Assembly: GCA_028705215.1 (NCBI GenBank)
Contig: JAQWDY010000001.1
Location: forward strand, 1-32,784
Origin: Patescibacteria group bacterium
Lineage (GTDB): Bacteria; Patescibacteriota; Patescibacteriia; Patescibacteriales; UBA12465
Direction of reading: 5' to 3'
Length of the DNA stretch: 32,784 nucleotides
Part shown: positions 23,803 through 30,754 of the stretch, piece after piece
Layout: each line of letters opens with the position of its first letter
Numbering within the stretch: position 1 is the stretch's first letter
Notes under the pieces: model-generated
The model's database searches: none
Told to the model about the DNA's origin: nothing
The model's input: only the letters and a program-made list of their open reading frames with translations
Translations under genes and position numbers: made by a program

Positions 23803-23943
23803 AAAAACACCATTGTTCTGGCGGCGACCTACTTTCCCAGGGCTCAGGCCCAAGTATCATCAGCGCTGTTGGGCTTAACTTCTGAGTTCGAGAAGGGATC
23901 AGGTGTGACCCCAACGCTTTACCACCAGAACAATGGTGTTTTT
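23803..23943 (-). repeat. Inverted repeat bracketing 5S rRNA (processing stem and terminator)
   Basis: AAAAACACCATTG (23803-23815) is the perfect complement of CAATGGTGTTTTT (23931-23943). It extends 5S helix I by 13 base pairs. In the precursor it would be an RNase III-type processing stem. The T run at its 3' side on the minus strand would also end transcription of the rRNA unit. Confidence 0.8.
23816..23930 (-). rRNA. rrf: 5S ribosomal RNA
   Basis: About 115 nt with the conserved 5S elements on the minus strand: the TTCTGGTGGT start, the CGAACTCAGAAGTTAAGC block and the CCTGGGAAAGTAGG block before CGCCGCCAGAA. The ends pair as helix I. Exact ends are estimated from helix I. Confidence 0.95.
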
Positions 23944-24307
23944 CTATATTTCAAGTGCTAAAAAACACTAAACCATTGTATATTTGTAAATCATCAATAA
24001 CCTTAAATATAAAAGTGTGAGAAAATCAAATGACATATTAGTACCACTCGGCTCAATCTGTTACCAGACTTACACCTATGGCCTATCAAGGTCATATTCT
24101 CTAACCTGTCTATGAAACCTAATCTTGAGGACAGCTTCGCGCTTATATGCTTTCAGCGCTTATCTAAACCGAAGGTAGCTACCCAGCAGTGCCCCTGATG
24201 GAACAGCTGGTACACTAGAGCTTCGTCCTTCCCGGTCCTCTCGTACTAAGGAAGGGCCCTCTCAAGTTTCCACGATCATAGTGGATAGGAGACCGACCTG
24301 TCTTACG

Positions 24308-24567
24308 CATGTTTTTCACTTATTACTAAGTGCATTGGACTATAATATCATCCTTAAAAATATTTATTATTTTAAGGAGGTTAACGTTTAGTCTCTACGG
24401 GCTTCAAATACAATTTGAATTCCCTCGGTATTGTCCTAAAAAAGGATTTTACCGATATAAGTTAACTTTTTATGCCAATATTGATTACTCAATATCGCCG
24501 CCGTATTTTATGTCGTTTTACCTCGTGGATTCAGAGCGTTTAAAGGCCAAATAAGTTTAGCCTCTAA
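24308..24567 (-). mobile_element. Group I intron at 23S site L2593, without ORF
   Basis: A 260-nt insertion after U2593 (E. coli numbering), between the exon GGGTTCAGACCGT and CGTAAGACAGG. It ends in the obligatory G. P7 pairing is visible as GACT (24393-24390) with AGTC (24341-24338) in the typical contexts GAGACTAAACG and TTATAGTCC, and P8 as CCTTAAAA/TTTTAAGG between them. No open reading frame of note is present, so it depends on others for mobility or is immobile. L2593 is a known group I site, for example in algal chloroplast LSU genes. Confidence 0.88.
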
Positions 24568-24571
24568 ACGG

Positions 24572-24624
<53 letters not shown>

Positions 24625-24634
24625 GCTTCTTCAC

Positions 24635-24667
<33 letters not shown>

Positions 24668-25177
24668 GAACCAGGTCGTCGATATGGACTCTTGGACCTG
24701 ACTAGCCTGTTATCCCCGGAGTAGCTTTTATCCGATGAGCTTCCACCATCCTATATTGAATGGTCGGATCACTAAGTTCCGCTTTCGCGACTGCTTGACT
24801 GGTAAGTCTCGCAGTAAAGCCGGCTTTTGCCTTTACACTATCTCCCGGGTTTCCATTCCGGGATAGCCGACCTTAGTAAACGCCTCCGTTACTTTTTGGG
24901 AGGCATCCGCCCCAGACAAACTACCCACCAGACACTGTCCCACGTTTAACGCGGTTAGAATTAAGAACATACAAGGGTGGTATCTCACTGGTGCCCGAAG
25001 GCTCCCACCTATGCTGAACATGGATATCCCTAATTCAATATCAAGTTGTAGTAAAGCTTCACGGGGTCTTCTCGTCCAACTATGATTAACGAGCATCTTT
25101 ACTCGTACTGCAATTTCACCGAGTACTTCGTTGAGACAGTGCCAAAGTGGTTAAGCCATTCGTGCAGGTCGGAACTT

Positions 25178-25967
<790 letters not shown>

Positions 25968-26088
25968 GATTATAGTTATCGCCGGCGTTCATCCGCGCTT
26001 GGATTCAAAGCTTCGCACAAAAGTGCTAACCTCTCCTCTTAACGTTCGGACACTGGCCAGGCATCACCCTCTATACATCCTCTTACGA

Positions 26089-26121
<33 letters not shown>

Positions 26122-27448
26122 CCTTTGGCTCTTTAGCTGCGGCCCTGATTGCTCAGGGCAGGCCTTATCTCTAAATTACGGCCGCTGTTTTGCCGAGTTC
26201 CTTAACGAAGTTTCTCTCGTACACCTGAGGCTTCTCGCCTCACCTACCTGTGTCGGTTTACGGTACGGTTACTATTGTCTTAGCCCTAGAGGTTTTTCTA
26301 GTCGGCTCTTTTGCTTAAATTGACTCCATCTTGCGACTTCGTCTTCCCACAATCTCTTGAAACTATTGATCCGGATTTGCCTAGATCGTTTCTTGAGACA
26401 ATGGACGTACAAATCATAGCACGCTTAAACTACAGAACCGCGTCCCCCCATCGGAAAACAACAGTAGTGCCGGAATATTAACCGGCTCTTCCATCGGCTG
26501 ACACCTACACTACATAGGTTGCGCCTTAGGATCGACTAACCCTGGGTCGATTTGCGTTGCCCAGGAAACCTTAGGTTTTCGGTGGGCGGGGTTTCAACCC
26601 GCCTTTTTGCTACTCATGCCAACATTCTCTCTTCCTTCCGCTCCACCACGCCTCACGACGTGACTTCAACGCTGAAAGAAATGCTCCTCTACCACTCTCT
26701 GATAAATCAGAAAGTTCGCATCTTCGGTACAAAGCTTAGCCCCGATAAATTTTCGGCGCGAAACAACTTAATTAGTGAGCTATTACGCTATCTTTAAAGG
26801 ATGGCTGCTTCTAAGCCAACCTCCTAACTGTCGTAGTCACAACACTACCTTTCACACTTAGCTTTGATTTAGGGACCTTAGATTGCGATCTGGGCTGTTT
26901 CCCTTTCGACTAATGGACCTTAGCGCCCATAGTCTAACTCCCGGACTCTACCCTCAAGTATTCGGAGTTTGATTGAAGACGGTATCTTGCGACCCGCCCT
27001 CATCCAGTGCTCTACCCCCTGAGGTCAACATCCGAGGCTAGCCCTAAAGCTATTTCGAGGAGAACCAGCTATTGCCGAGTTCGATTACAATTTCTGCGCT
27101 TACCACAGCTCATCCCCGCGTGTTGCACGACGCGTGGGTTCGGTCCTTCATTCGTCTTTCGACGAACTTCAACCTGGCCATGGCAAGATCACCCGGCTTC
27201 GGGTCTTGTCCATGCGACAAATGCTACGCTTCCGTCTCGCTACTAGTAACGATGACGAAAGCGAAGCACAAACGGGCAGTTAACCCTCGCTTTCACTACA
27301 CATGCTCTCCAAACGGAGATTATGTAAGCCACATAGAACAAACTCGTTGGCTCATTCTTCAATAGGCACGCCGTCACCCGCCGAAACGGGCTCCGACTCC
27401 TTGTAAGTATATGGTTTCAGGTACTATTTCACCTCCCTCAACGGGATG

Positions 27449-27485
<37 letters not shown>

Positions 27486-28083
27486 ATCATAAGAAGTATT
27501 TAGCCTTAGGTCATAGTCGACCTGGCTTCAGACGGGATTTCACGAGTCCCGCCCTACTTAAGAATTTTAACCACGAAGAGATAGTTCTTTTCGCTTACCG
27601 GGCTATCACCGTCTCTGGCTGAGCTTTCCAACTCATTCTGCTAAAAATTATCTTTTATGACTTCGCCTTGTTGTTCTGAAAAACAAGCGTTAAAATCTTG
27701 CAACACCGAAAAAACATATGGCTCCAGAACCTTCAGGATCAAACTTGGCGAACCAAGTTTAATCTGCAGTTATTTCGGTTTAGGCTCCTCCCCTTTCGCT
27801 CGCCACTACTTAGGGAATGATTATTATTCTCTTTTCCTCCGGCTACTAAGATGTTTCAGTTCACCGGGTCTTCCAGCTCGCTTAAAAAGCTTGAGCTGCC
27901 TCTATCTTCAATAGAGGGGGTTTCCCCATTCGGAAATCTGCGGGTCAAAGGTTGCTTGCCACCTTACCGCAGCTTATCGCAGGCTGCTACGTCCTTCATC
28001 GTCTTCTTATGTCAAGGCATCCACCGTATACTCTTATTGAGATTTTCTCACACTTTTAAATTTAAAGAAATTTAAAACTGTGC

Positions 28084-28160: not shown

Positions 28161-28184
28161 CTTTATTCAGTTATTAAAGTTCGC
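28161..28184 (-). promoter_or_regulatory. boxA-like antitermination site in the 23S leader
   Basis: The minus strand reads GCGAACTTTAATAACTGAATA. This resembles the boxA of low-GC bacteria (CTTTGAAAACT core), which recruits NusB-S10 in rRNA leaders. nusB itself is at 30278-30754. The match is partial. Confidence 0.4.
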
Positions 28185-28191
28185 AAGGCGC

Positions 28192-28252
28192 AAAAAAACC
28201 GCTTTTAAGCGGTTCTAAGTAGTCATAAAATCGACAATCAATTAGAATCGCT
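28192..28252 (-). promoter_or_regulatory. Terminator with competing antiterminator helix in the 23S leader
   Basis: On the minus strand AACCGCTT (28214-28207) and AAGCGGTT (28204-28197) form a palindromic hairpin followed by seven T residues, which is a good intrinsic terminator. Upstream, AGCGATTCTAA (28252-28242) can pair with TTAGAACCGCT (28218-28208) over 10 of 11 positions. The second helix uses the left arm of the terminator, so the two are mutually exclusive. No gene lies between this element and 23S. It may gate rRNA synthesis or end a separate short RNA of about 125 nt. Confidence 0.55.
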
Positions 28253-28322
28253 TTTTTTGTTTAAGCAGAATGTTTATCATCATACTTTTTAGCCTTTTAG
28301 GCCTTGTTTAAAACTGTTTATA

Positions 28323-28350
28323 ATTATAACCGTTTTTAAAATTATGTCAA
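28323..28350 (-). promoter_or_regulatory. Consensus promoter of the 23S-5S unit
   Basis: On the minus strand a perfect TTGACA (28350-28345) and a perfect TATAAT (28328-28323) are separated by 16 nt. The predicted start near 28316 gives a leader of about 270 nt before mature 23S. It is the strongest promoter in the window, as expected for rRNA. Confidence 0.8.
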
Positions 28351-28379: not shown

Positions 28380-28407
28380 TAAAAAACCCTGTTTTTGGGC
28401 TTTTTTG
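28380..28407 (-). terminator. Possible second terminator downstream of pilT
   Basis: CCC (28387-28389) and GGG (28397-28399) within A6 and T6 flanks form a short stem on the minus strand. It is weaker than the hairpin at 28426-28461 and may back it up, insulating the rRNA promoter. Confidence 0.4.
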
Positions 28408-28470: not shown

Positions 28471-29538
28471 TTATTTTTTTATTTTTTTTATTTCTAAAGC
28501 TTCTTCTAAATAACTCTCAGCAATATTTTTTTCAATCAAACCCTCGCTGTACAACTTTTTAATATCACTCGCTAATGTCATCATGCCCAAACTTGACCCG
28601 GTTTCTATAACAGTATTAATTTGCGCAATTTTTCCCTCTCTAATTAAATTAGCTGAAGCGGAGTTGTTAAGTAAAATTTCTCGCGCAGCGATTCTTCCAC
28701 CGCCAATTCTTGGCAATAATCTTTGCGAAATAACAGCACGCAATACCATAGAAAGTTGTGACTTAGCTTGATTCTGTTGATGTGGCGGAAAAATATCAAT
28801 AATGCGATCTATCGTTTGCGCTGCACTATAGGTGTGAAGAGTAGCTAAAACTAAGTGTCCTGTTTCGGCAATTGTTAAGGCGGTTGAAATTGTCTCCAAA
28901 TCTCTCATCTCCCCTATCATTACAACGTTAGGGTCTTGGCGCAAGACATGTTTTAGTCCACTGGCAAAGCTAATCATATCTTGACCTAATTCCCGCTGCG
29001 AAATAACACTTTTTTTCGCCTTAAAAATATATTCGGTCGGATCTTCCAGGGTTATTATGTTTGCTTTTCTCTCATTGTTAATATGATTTATCATCGCCGC
29101 TAAAGTGGTTGATTTGCCACAACCAGTGGGGCCGGTAACAAGAATTAATCCTTGATGATAATTTAAAATATTAGACACCACGGCGGGTAAATTTAAATCG
29201 GTCAGACTTGGTTCATCATTTTTTATAACACGTGCTACTATTTTCATTTCTCCTTTTTCAAAAGAAAAATTCAAACGGTACCTTGTTCCCTCAACCTCAC
29301 AACTACTATCAAGATCTTTTTTCTCTAGAAATAATTTCTTTGCCTCTTCGGTTAATAAATCATCAACAAAAACCGATAAATCAGATGTACTCAATTTGGG
29401 GAAAGATTCAACTTTTTCAACCATATTAATGCTTAACAGTTCTCCATCAATTCTTAAGATTGGCTCCTGCCCGACTAAAACGTGTAAATCAGAAGCCCCC
29501 TTTTCTGCGGCTAGTTTTAAAATATTTTTAATTTCCAT
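28471..29538 (-). CDS. pilT: Type IV pilus retraction ATPase PilT
   Basis: Hexameric cytoplasmic ATPase that powers pilus retraction. At 355 residues it is normal. The N-terminal PAS-like domain starts with the usual LKLAAEKGASDLHV. Walker A is GPTGCGKST (136-144), followed by the Asp box ITLEDPTEYIF, Walker B VVMIGEMRDLET and the His box TGHLVLATLHT. The PilT signature AIRTxL-like region appears as AREILLNNSASANLIREGKIAQI. It starts 3 nt after rnc, so it is translated with an RNA-processing operon; no other pilus gene is in the window. Confidence 0.95.
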   Translation of the reverse strand: MEIKNILKLAAEKGASDLHVLVGQEPILRIDGELLSINMVEKVESFPKLSTSDLSVFVDDLLTEEAKKLFLEKKDLDSSCEVEGTRYRLNFSFEKGEMKIVARVIKNDEPSLTDLNLPAVVSNILNYHQGLILVTGPTGCGKSTTLAAMINHINNERKANIITLEDPTEYIFKAKKSVISQRELGQDMISFASGLKHVLRQDPNVVMIGEMRDLETISTALTIAETGHLVLATLHTYSAAQTIDRIIDIFPPHQQNQAKSQLSMVLRAVISQRLLPRIGGGRIAAREILLNNSASANLIREGKIAQINTVIETGSSLGMMTLASDIKKLYSEGLIEKNIAESYLEEALEIKKIKK

Positions 29539-29541
29539 ATT

Positions 29542-30240
29542 TTACCAATTAAGTTTTTTTAAACCTTTAGAGGCTGCATCTACCTGCGCCTCTTGTTTAG
29601 ATAACCCCTTTCCTTTAATTATCAACTCATCTTCTAGATAAAGACCAACTGTAAAAACTTTAGCGTGATCTGGACCGTATTCTTCTAATATTTTATAATG
29701 CGGTGTAATTCCTCGTTCTTCTTGAGACTTCTCTTGAAATTTTGACTTTGGGTCAAGATAAAGTTTATTTTTTAAAATTTCATCTAATTTAGAAACAATA
29801 TTTTTTAATATAAAATTCTTTGTAACTTTCATTCCTTGGTCTAAATAAATAGCGCCAATAATCGCTTCAACTGCATCCGCTAAAATAAAATGACGAGATT
29901 TTTTATTCTTATCTTTTGCCTCTCCTTTTGAAAGATAGAGACTTTTCTCAACCTCTAAATCAGAGGCTACCTCATAGAGCATCTTAGCGTTAACTAAAGA
30001 TGCGCGCCAATTAGTTAAATCCCCCTCTGGCACCTCTGGAAATGTTAAAAATAAATACTCAGTTACTACAATTTCTAAAACCGCATCACCTAAAAATTCT
30101 AATCTTTCATTGTGACCAATTTTAAAATCCGGATGCTCGTTTATATAAGAGCGATGAACTAAAGCTTGTTTTAATAAACTCTTATCTTTAAACTCAACTT
30201 TTAAATTTTTTTGCAATTTTGTTAAATTATTTGCCTCCAT
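29542..30240 (-). CDS. rnc: Ribonuclease III
   Basis: Double-strand-specific endoribonuclease that processes rRNA precursors and structured mRNAs. The 232 residues hold an RNase III domain with the signature HNERLEFLGDAVLEIV, then ADAVEAIIGAIYLDQG with the second pair of metal ligands. A C-terminal double-stranded-RNA-binding domain follows (SKFQEKSQEERGITPHYKI through GLSKQEAQVDAASKGLKKL). It lies between nusB and pilT and close to the 23S-5S unit whose processing stems are likely substrates. A hairpin lies just upstream at 30263-30290. Confidence 0.97.
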   Translation of the reverse strand: MEANNLTKLQKNLKVEFKDKSLLKQALVHRSYINEHPDFKIGHNERLEFLGDAVLEIVVTEYLFLTFPEVPEGDLTNWRASLVNAKMLYEVASDLEVEKSLYLSKGEAKDKNKKSRHFILADAVEAIIGAIYLDQGMKVTKNFILKNIVSKLDEILKNKLYLDPKSKFQEKSQEERGITPHYKILEEYGPDHAKVFTVGLYLEDELIIKGKGLSKQEAQVDAASKGLKKLNW

Positions 30241-30262
30241 ATTATTATTTCAAAAAAGCAAA

Positions 30263-30290
30263 GAAAGAGTCTAAAATTTAAGACTCTTTC
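30263..30290 (-). terminator. Hairpin at the nusB-rnc junction (attenuator or RNase III site)
   Basis: GAAAGAGTCT (30263-30272) pairs perfectly with AGACTCTTTC (30281-30290) over an 8-nt loop containing the nusB stop. A T-rich tract with one C (TTTGCTTTTTT) follows on the minus strand. It may partly terminate transcription before rnc, or be cleaved by RNase III as in the autoregulated rnc leader of E. coli. Confidence 0.55.
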
Positions 30291-30754
30291 TCTGAAGTTT
30301 TATCTTCTTTTTCTTTTTCCTCCTTATTATCTCTTATCTGGATATCTTCTTCATCGGCATAAAGCGCACCTAAAACACCATTAACAAATTTTCCCGAAGA
30401 ATCACCACCAAAACTTTTTGCAATTTCAATTGATTCATTTATTGCTACTCGTGGTGGTACGTCGGTAAACAATAATTCATAAATACCAAGACGTAAAATA
30501 TTGCGATCTACCGCGGTTATTTGATCAAGTGGCCACTCGGTCGCATACTTTATTATCTTTTCGTCTATCTCCTTAACTTTATTTGAAATTCCAGTTACTA
30601 AATCTTTTACAAAACCCTGGTCATCAAATTGAGGCGCAAAGTTTGCAAAATTGTCAGAAATTATTTCTTCTAAATTGTTGTTTTTCTGACCATTAAAATC
30701 CCAAGTAAATATGGTTTGTAAAGCAATTGTACGAGCCAAGTGCCGATTAGACAT
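30278..30754 (-). CDS. nusB: Transcription antitermination protein NusB
   Basis: Binds boxA RNA with S10 and supports rRNA antitermination. Residues 1-135 match the all-helical family: [64 protein letters not shown]. About 25 further residues form an acidic-basic tail ([18 protein letters not shown]), making 158 in all. It starts 2 nt after rpmF and its end is embedded in the hairpin before rnc. A boxA-like target lies in the 23S leader at 28161-28184. Confidence 0.95.

Follow-up and report, generated by a model that had tools for sequence, protein, structure and literature searches.

The window, by which we mean the whole stretch of 32,784 nucleotides that was analysed, comes from a Patescibacteria-type genome of 746 kb in 36 contigs, and its minus strand carries a 23S and a 5S rRNA gene that form an operon of their own (Table 1). 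The 16S gene is unlinked and sits 57 kb away, so a single rRNA operon with 16S upstream can be rejected, and in the other 23S leaders of the order for which the 23S start could be located, no 16S 3' end was found upstream (up to 1.5 kb). The 23S gene is 4.0 kb long, and the LAGLIDADG ORF inside it represents an intron-type insertion, a common feature in such bacteria. Upstream of the operon and on the same strand we found an ftsH-like gene, nusB, rnc, and a T2SSE-family (pilT-like) gene. Directly 5' of the 23S operon, within 28471-30754, are nusB and rnc, coding for factors of rRNA antitermination and processing, and then the T2SSE-family gene. The terminator-like hairpin 3' of this last gene would insulate 23S from the preceding genes, a role inferred from sequence alone. 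The strand of the pre-23S processing-type stem listed in Table 1 has its complement at 24003-24027. At gathering score, the Rfam 15 covariance models matched only tRNA, LSU, and 5S in the window and nothing on the leader, for which reason a known structured RNA family (riboswitch, T-box, r-protein leader) was rejected.

Table 1. Features of the 23S-5S operon and its leader (positions in the window)
Feature	Position	Strand	Basis
5S rRNA gene	23816..23929	-	RF00001 match
23S rRNA gene, with insertions	24017..28049	-	RF02541 match
LAGLIDADG endonuclease ORF inside 23S gene	25218..25673		PF00961
5' strand of pre-23S processing-type stem	28041..28065	-	25-nt inverted match, 96%
boxA-like element, CTTTAATAACTGAATA	28164..28179	-	14/16 to the consensus used
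Intrinsic terminator	28192..28215	-	RNAfold, -9.7 kcal/mol
Antiterminator 3' arm (B), TTAGAACCGCTT	28207..28218	-	pairing and comparison
Antiterminator 5' arm (A), AAGCGATTCTAA	28242..28253	-	pairing and comparison
Leader ORF, 13 codons, MMINILLKQKKRF and stop	28242..28283	-	comparison and sequence
Sigma-70-type promoter of 23S-5S operon, TTGACA-N16-TATAAT	28323..28350	-	12/12 match
Terminator-like hairpin 3' of the T2SSE-family (pilT-like) gene, upstream of the promoter	28381..28405	-	sequence scan

The promoter ranks best among the 30 promoter-like sites of an 8.8-kb stretch, and the RNA start is predicted at about 28316. The intrinsic terminator lies approximately 100 nt past the promoter and reads GAACCGCT-TAAA-AGCGGTTT followed by T, with its left arm at 28215-28208, the loop at 28207-28204, the right arm (C) at 28203-28196, and the T run at 28198-28192. 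It was missed by a simple terminator scan and is plain by eye and by folding. No ORF of 80 amino acids or more is present between promoter and terminator. Ahead of the terminator, positions 28252-28242 (AGCGATTCTAA) pair with 28218-28208 (TTAGAACCGCT) at 10 of 11 positions, leaving one A-C mismatch. As arm B includes the left arm of the terminator, the A:B and B:C helices are mutually exclusive. The pairing is not due to chance, since the folded stretch from A to B has a z of -4.4 against dinucleotide shuffles and the A:B core forms before the right arm of the terminator. The original prediction had described a perfect-consensus promoter toward 23S, a terminator about 100 nt later with no gene before it, the 10-of-11 pairing, and a boxA-like site past the terminator; all four claims held, and the leader was correctly described except for the processing stem and a short ORF, both of which were missed.

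This ORF has 13 codons and a stop (ATG ATG ATA AAC ATT CTG CTT AAA CAA AAA AAG CGA TTC TAA), with a second, in-frame ATG at 28280. Arm A consists of its final three codons plus the stop, so that the ORF ends on the last base of the arm. No SD-like motif was found upstream of the leader ATG in any of the 78 order leaders described below, this genome included, and the strength of initiation is unknown. A small hairpin just 5' of the ATG is seen in this genus only. The A-C mismatch in the antiterminator core/outer helix (GCGAT vs ACCGC; 28253-28207) is shared by the whole genus, and a similar one, one base away (GCAGT), appears in one other family; these mismatches could perhaps tune the switch.

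We compared the leaders of 23S loci from the same genus, family, and order, reading each from the -35 box; the sequences come mostly from metagenome bins. Among 79 order leaders examined, 78 complete ones from 16 families have a GC terminator, and in all 78 the promoter, ORF, antiterminator, and terminator follow each other in the same order. The promoter is of the same type in nearly all order leaders. The ORF was found automatically in 75 leaders and by eye in the other three (G016, G025, and G052), in which the arm finder had misplaced the arm. An unguided detector applied to the 650 nt upstream of 23S identified the terminator in 72, the antiterminator in 72, and the ORF in 65 of 75 leaders, against 1.7, 1.1, and 0.0 of 75 in shuffled sequences and 5, 2, and 0 on the opposite strand. 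A boxA-like site is present past the terminator in 58 of 74 leaders (5.5 expected), as counted with a stricter pattern, the initial one being too loose. Here and below, chance expectations come from shuffles and family swaps and not from a full phylogenetic model. The single leader without a GC terminator (G042, at L101) has a seven-codon ORF (MLVRPTS and stop) and a weak AT-rich hairpin, which might reflect either decay or a variant of the system.

The ORF is conserved in length and in position of its stop. An ATG-initiated ORF of 12 to 14 codons that ends in the arm is found in 69 of the 78 leaders, while only 2.2 would be expected when the stretch before the arm, and nothing else, is shuffled. 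Lengths range from 9 to 14 codons, with 51 of 75 ORFs having 13, 15 having 12, and 3 having 14. The stop (TAA in 46, TAG in 12, and TGA in 17) usually lies 4, 5, or 7 nt away from where the arm core begins, that is, in three different frames (AGC GGT TAA, AAG CGG TTA TAA, and AAG CGG TGA). In the closest relative (G006) the frame is shifted, the stop still falls a few bases beyond, and the ORF has 14 codons. The peptide itself is little conserved (pooled pN/pS of 0.78) and varies even within the genus. A lysine is found at codon 9, outside the pairing arm, in 27 of 40 of the 13-codon peptides of the order, for which we have no explanation.

The GCGGT/ACCGC core of the antiterminator is nearly invariant and, by itself, little informative, while the helix inside it is strongly variable across families. 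Without the core, this inner helix reaches -5.74 kcal/mol with its own partner vs -2.58 kcal/mol with partners from other families, and the own partner is better in all 16 families (P = 0.0004). When the whole duplex is swapped, the own partner is better in 13 of 16 (P = 0.003). For these covariation tests the ORF stop helped to locate the arms, which does not apply to the ORF test or the unguided counts. The original prediction had proposed a comparison of related leaders as a check, and both helices are indeed conserved, with the antiterminator covarying across the 16 families. The segment from A to B has a mean z of -4.3 against shuffles (below -2 in 76 of 78 leaders) and is more stable than the terminator in 77 of 78. 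Over the order, the T run starts 84.4 +/- 2.6 nt from the ATG; the distance from the start site to the ATG varies by +/- 10.8 nt, and that from the terminator to 23S by hundreds of nucleotides. Two inner spacings compensate each other over genomes (rho of -0.38) and do not do so over family means, so that a compensation is possible and the data are suggestive only.

Predicted folds change with the position of a ribosome on the leader. In transcripts ending before C, the A:B core is present in 78 of 78 leaders. When a ribosome masks the stop codon, the terminator is the predicted fold in 75 of 78 and the antiterminator in none. A ribosome at codons 1 to 5 leaves the predicted outcome nearly as it is without one, and the terminator wins from codon 7 onward. 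At full-length equilibrium without a ribosome, 38 of 78 leaders fold to the antiterminator and 39 to the terminator. The claim that ribosome-free RNA always prefers the antiterminator is therefore rejected at equilibrium and kept only for the transcript before C. In this genome there is a slight equilibrium preference for the terminator (-13.3 for the terminator state, -12.0 for the antiterminator segment before C), since formation of the terminator does not exclude the inner stem. Given this split, read-through depends on the antiterminator forming first, a kinetic step that is inferred and was not simulated kinetically.

A strict motif scan of 84,980 species gave 36 matches. With the exception of two (L134 and L147), the matches in the Patescibacteria group are located 71 to 430 nt before 23S and have an in-frame ORF, mostly of 13 codons and ending in SG before the stop; all 13 class genomes matched have 23S downstream. 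Several of the matched contigs belong to bins labelled just "bacterium," and the same leader architecture appears in named "Candidatus Falkowbacteria," Portnoybacteria, and other Parcubacteria-group bacteria. The matches in named Pseudomonas, Polynucleobacter, Shewanella, Aliivibrio, and others are not located near 23S. One contig labelled Flavobacteriaceae (L164) has a 23S leader of the Patescibacteria type, 13-codon ORF included, and is probably mis-binned. In 60 leaders from other orders and classes, the unguided detector identified the terminator in 41, the antiterminator in 39, and the ORF, under the strict ORF test, in 19, vs 1.4, 1.2, and 0.1 in shuffles. In the 17 of these outside leaders with both an ORF and a findable T run, the run is mostly 78 to 97 nt from the ATG. 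Peptide composition is wholly changed outside the order, with length and stop position kept. The recurrence of the layout so far from the order gives further support to a two-state attenuator. No clear case was found among 18 more distant Patescibacteria, so the attenuator is not universal.

The separate 16S gene has a leader with its own consensus promoter (L002, 2980-3280, reverse strand; L103-L132), in which a conserved weak hairpin is followed by seven T (AACAAGATAT..ATATCTCTGTTTTTTT). The stem-plus-T test was passed by 15 of 30 of these leaders vs 4.6 expected, and we found no conserved ORF in them. As the 16S hairpin is weaker and a conserved ORF is absent, the presence of the same switch on 16S is rejected; a second, different attenuator remains a possibility.

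The leader is most probably an attenuator that couples transcription of the 23S-5S operon to translation. It has the sequence features expected of a ribosome-mediated attenuator, namely, an intrinsic terminator in the leader before the regulated gene, a mutually exclusive antiterminator conserved by covariation, and a short ORF that overlaps the switching arm in a kept frame, with its stop codon in or beside the arm. In this model, RNA polymerase would start at the strong promoter and transcribe, in turn, the 13-codon ORF, the antiterminator, and the terminator. If the ORF is untranslated, or a ribosome is held at its first codons, A would be free to pair with B as B emerges; the A:B helix would then block the terminator, and the polymerase would pass boxA and make 23S and 5S. 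A ribosome at the last codons or the stop would instead cover A, leaving B to pair with C, and transcription would end after about 125 nt. Since a ribosome that has reached the end of the ORF sits on the antiterminator, less 23S would be made with more translation: abundant functional ribosomes would reduce 23S output and scarce ones would allow it, a direct negative feedback. There is good support for the architecture. The analysis shows all the parts and how they are conserved, the covarying antiterminator, the length and stop of the ORF, the distance from ATG to terminator, and the predicted change of fold upon masking. In the absence of expression data, it is only inferred that the ORF is translated and that this affects termination, that the terminator acts in vivo, in which direction control goes, and what the physiological signal is. 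The two-state attenuator gating 23S put forward in the original prediction is supported; what it lacked is the sensor, the leader ORF.

Other explanations of the leader appear very unlikely. In an amino-acid-specific attenuator, a shortage of charged tRNA (Lys, Arg, or Leu) would stall the leader ribosome and set 23S output. The general layout is that of the trp and his leaders, and besides the lysine at codon 9 (27/40), Leu and Ile are frequent at codons 5 to 8. Against it, there is no run of a single codon, peptides differ freely between genera and within the genus (pN/pS of 0.78), their composition changes completely outside the order while length and stop position stay, and the frequent end residues (SG, KRF, and KRL) are dictated by the RNA arm. 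With no codon run, unconserved peptides, and rRNA as the target, we reject a trp/his-type attenuator as the main reading. The opposite logic, with leader ribosomes favoring read-through so that 23S is made only under active translation, would suit growth-rate control, and the ribosome-free equilibrium folds give the terminator in 39 of 78 leaders. However, the arm that a ribosome covers on reaching the end of the ORF is that of the antiterminator and not one of the terminator, and masking leads to the terminator in 75 of 78 and to the antiterminator in none, which leaves this option with little credibility.

We also consider very improbable a protein-gated or purely RNA-gated attenuator (through NusA, a ribosomal protein, or transcription speed, for example) in which the ORF is merely tolerated. 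A terminator and an antiterminator alone make a switch, and nusB and rnc are just upstream of the operon, but a fixed ORF length, an in-frame stop in three frames, and a fixed distance from ATG to terminator would be unexpected. The original prediction had left as an alternative a separate RNA of about 125 nt ending at the terminator, with 23S started from another promoter downstream. Such a terminated RNA is expected anyway as a by-product of the off state, and between terminator and 23S, promoter-like sites occur slightly more often than by chance (10 of 74 leaders vs 5.4 expected). Nevertheless, no site is consistent among them, nearly all leaders keep the consensus promoter, boxA is past the terminator, and the conserved antiterminator would be needless for a stand-alone terminated RNA, so this alternative is strongly disfavored.

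Returning to the translation-coupled attenuator, a bolder reading, which we consider more likely than not, is that in much of the Patescibacteria (CPR) rRNA synthesis is under direct molecular feedback, with the ribosome that translates the 13-codon leader terminating the 23S transcript, and with leader length and the spacing between ATG and terminator serving as a clock against RNA polymerase. An explanation of the switch by loss of ppGpp is rejected, as RelA/SpoT is present in 34 of 40 relatives, this genome included. Since the genes for ppGpp synthesis are present, the switch would add to the stringent response and not replace it. The attenuator also fits the fact that 16S and 23S are unlinked and have to be controlled separately, and would represent a means of regulation in a very large group of bacteria whose gene regulation is little known.

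An rRNA gene under leader-peptide attenuation is not described in the open literature that we searched, most subscription papers and preprints being outside that search. We would be dealing with a known mechanism on a target, 23S, for which none is described in the literature searched. The nearest mechanism in print is that of vmlR in Bacillus subtilis, a uORF attenuator in which normal translation leads to termination and failing translation to read-through; defects in ribosome assembly induce vmlR as well (PMC9226507). The lmo0919 gene of Listeria, which confers antibiotic resistance, is likewise preceded by a translation-sensing uORF attenuator. Our leaders share with both the short leader ORF, the competition of an antiterminator with an intrinsic terminator, and the absence of amino-acid-specific codons. 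Of the traits of the vmlR type, the leader uORF shows the lack of amino acid specificity, while read-through upon failing translation is only a prediction from masking. Unlike in vmlR, the target is 23S rRNA itself and not a resistance gene, the ORF overlaps the antiterminator arm directly with no conserved anti-antiterminator hairpin evident by eye, and a large part of the phylum keeps the ORF at 13 codons.

The trp, his, and phe operons are the well-known cases of leader-peptide attenuation. As in these, the position of a ribosome on a short ORF (9 to 15 codons here) would choose between exclusive helices, with termination as the output. However, trp and his have a regulatory run of codons that is missing here, and the target here is non-coding. 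There, a stalled ribosome prevents termination, whereas in our leaders termination should result from a ribosome that has reached the end of the ORF. The boxA-like element in the same leader recalls boxA/NusB-S10 antitermination, and the test for a boxA/NusB rRNA antitermination leader is met as far as the presence of boxA goes, the attenuator being a different element. Classically, boxA counters Rho and is not an on/off switch. Located downstream of the attenuator, it would modify the polymerase only after the decision.

The output of ribosome components is also set by a leader terminator/antiterminator in rplJL of B. subtilis (PMC4538822), where the ligand is a ribosomal protein complex; the layout here points to the ribosome. 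How rRNA synthesis is matched to translational capacity is an old question. In the ribosome feedback (Nomura) model of Escherichia coli, rRNA synthesis falls as translational capacity rises; the effect depends on translating ribosomes, with no direct effect seen in vitro, and the signal is indirect and debated, ppGpp and NTP having been proposed (PMC2320978). The logic is common to both systems, but the leaders described here would let the ribosome directly affect the rRNA transcript, through the simplest sensor possible, a ribosome that translates a mini-ORF on that transcript. If true, the E. coli feedback model would here have a direct, physical counterpart, and the switch would be a candidate ancient trait of the Patescibacteria.
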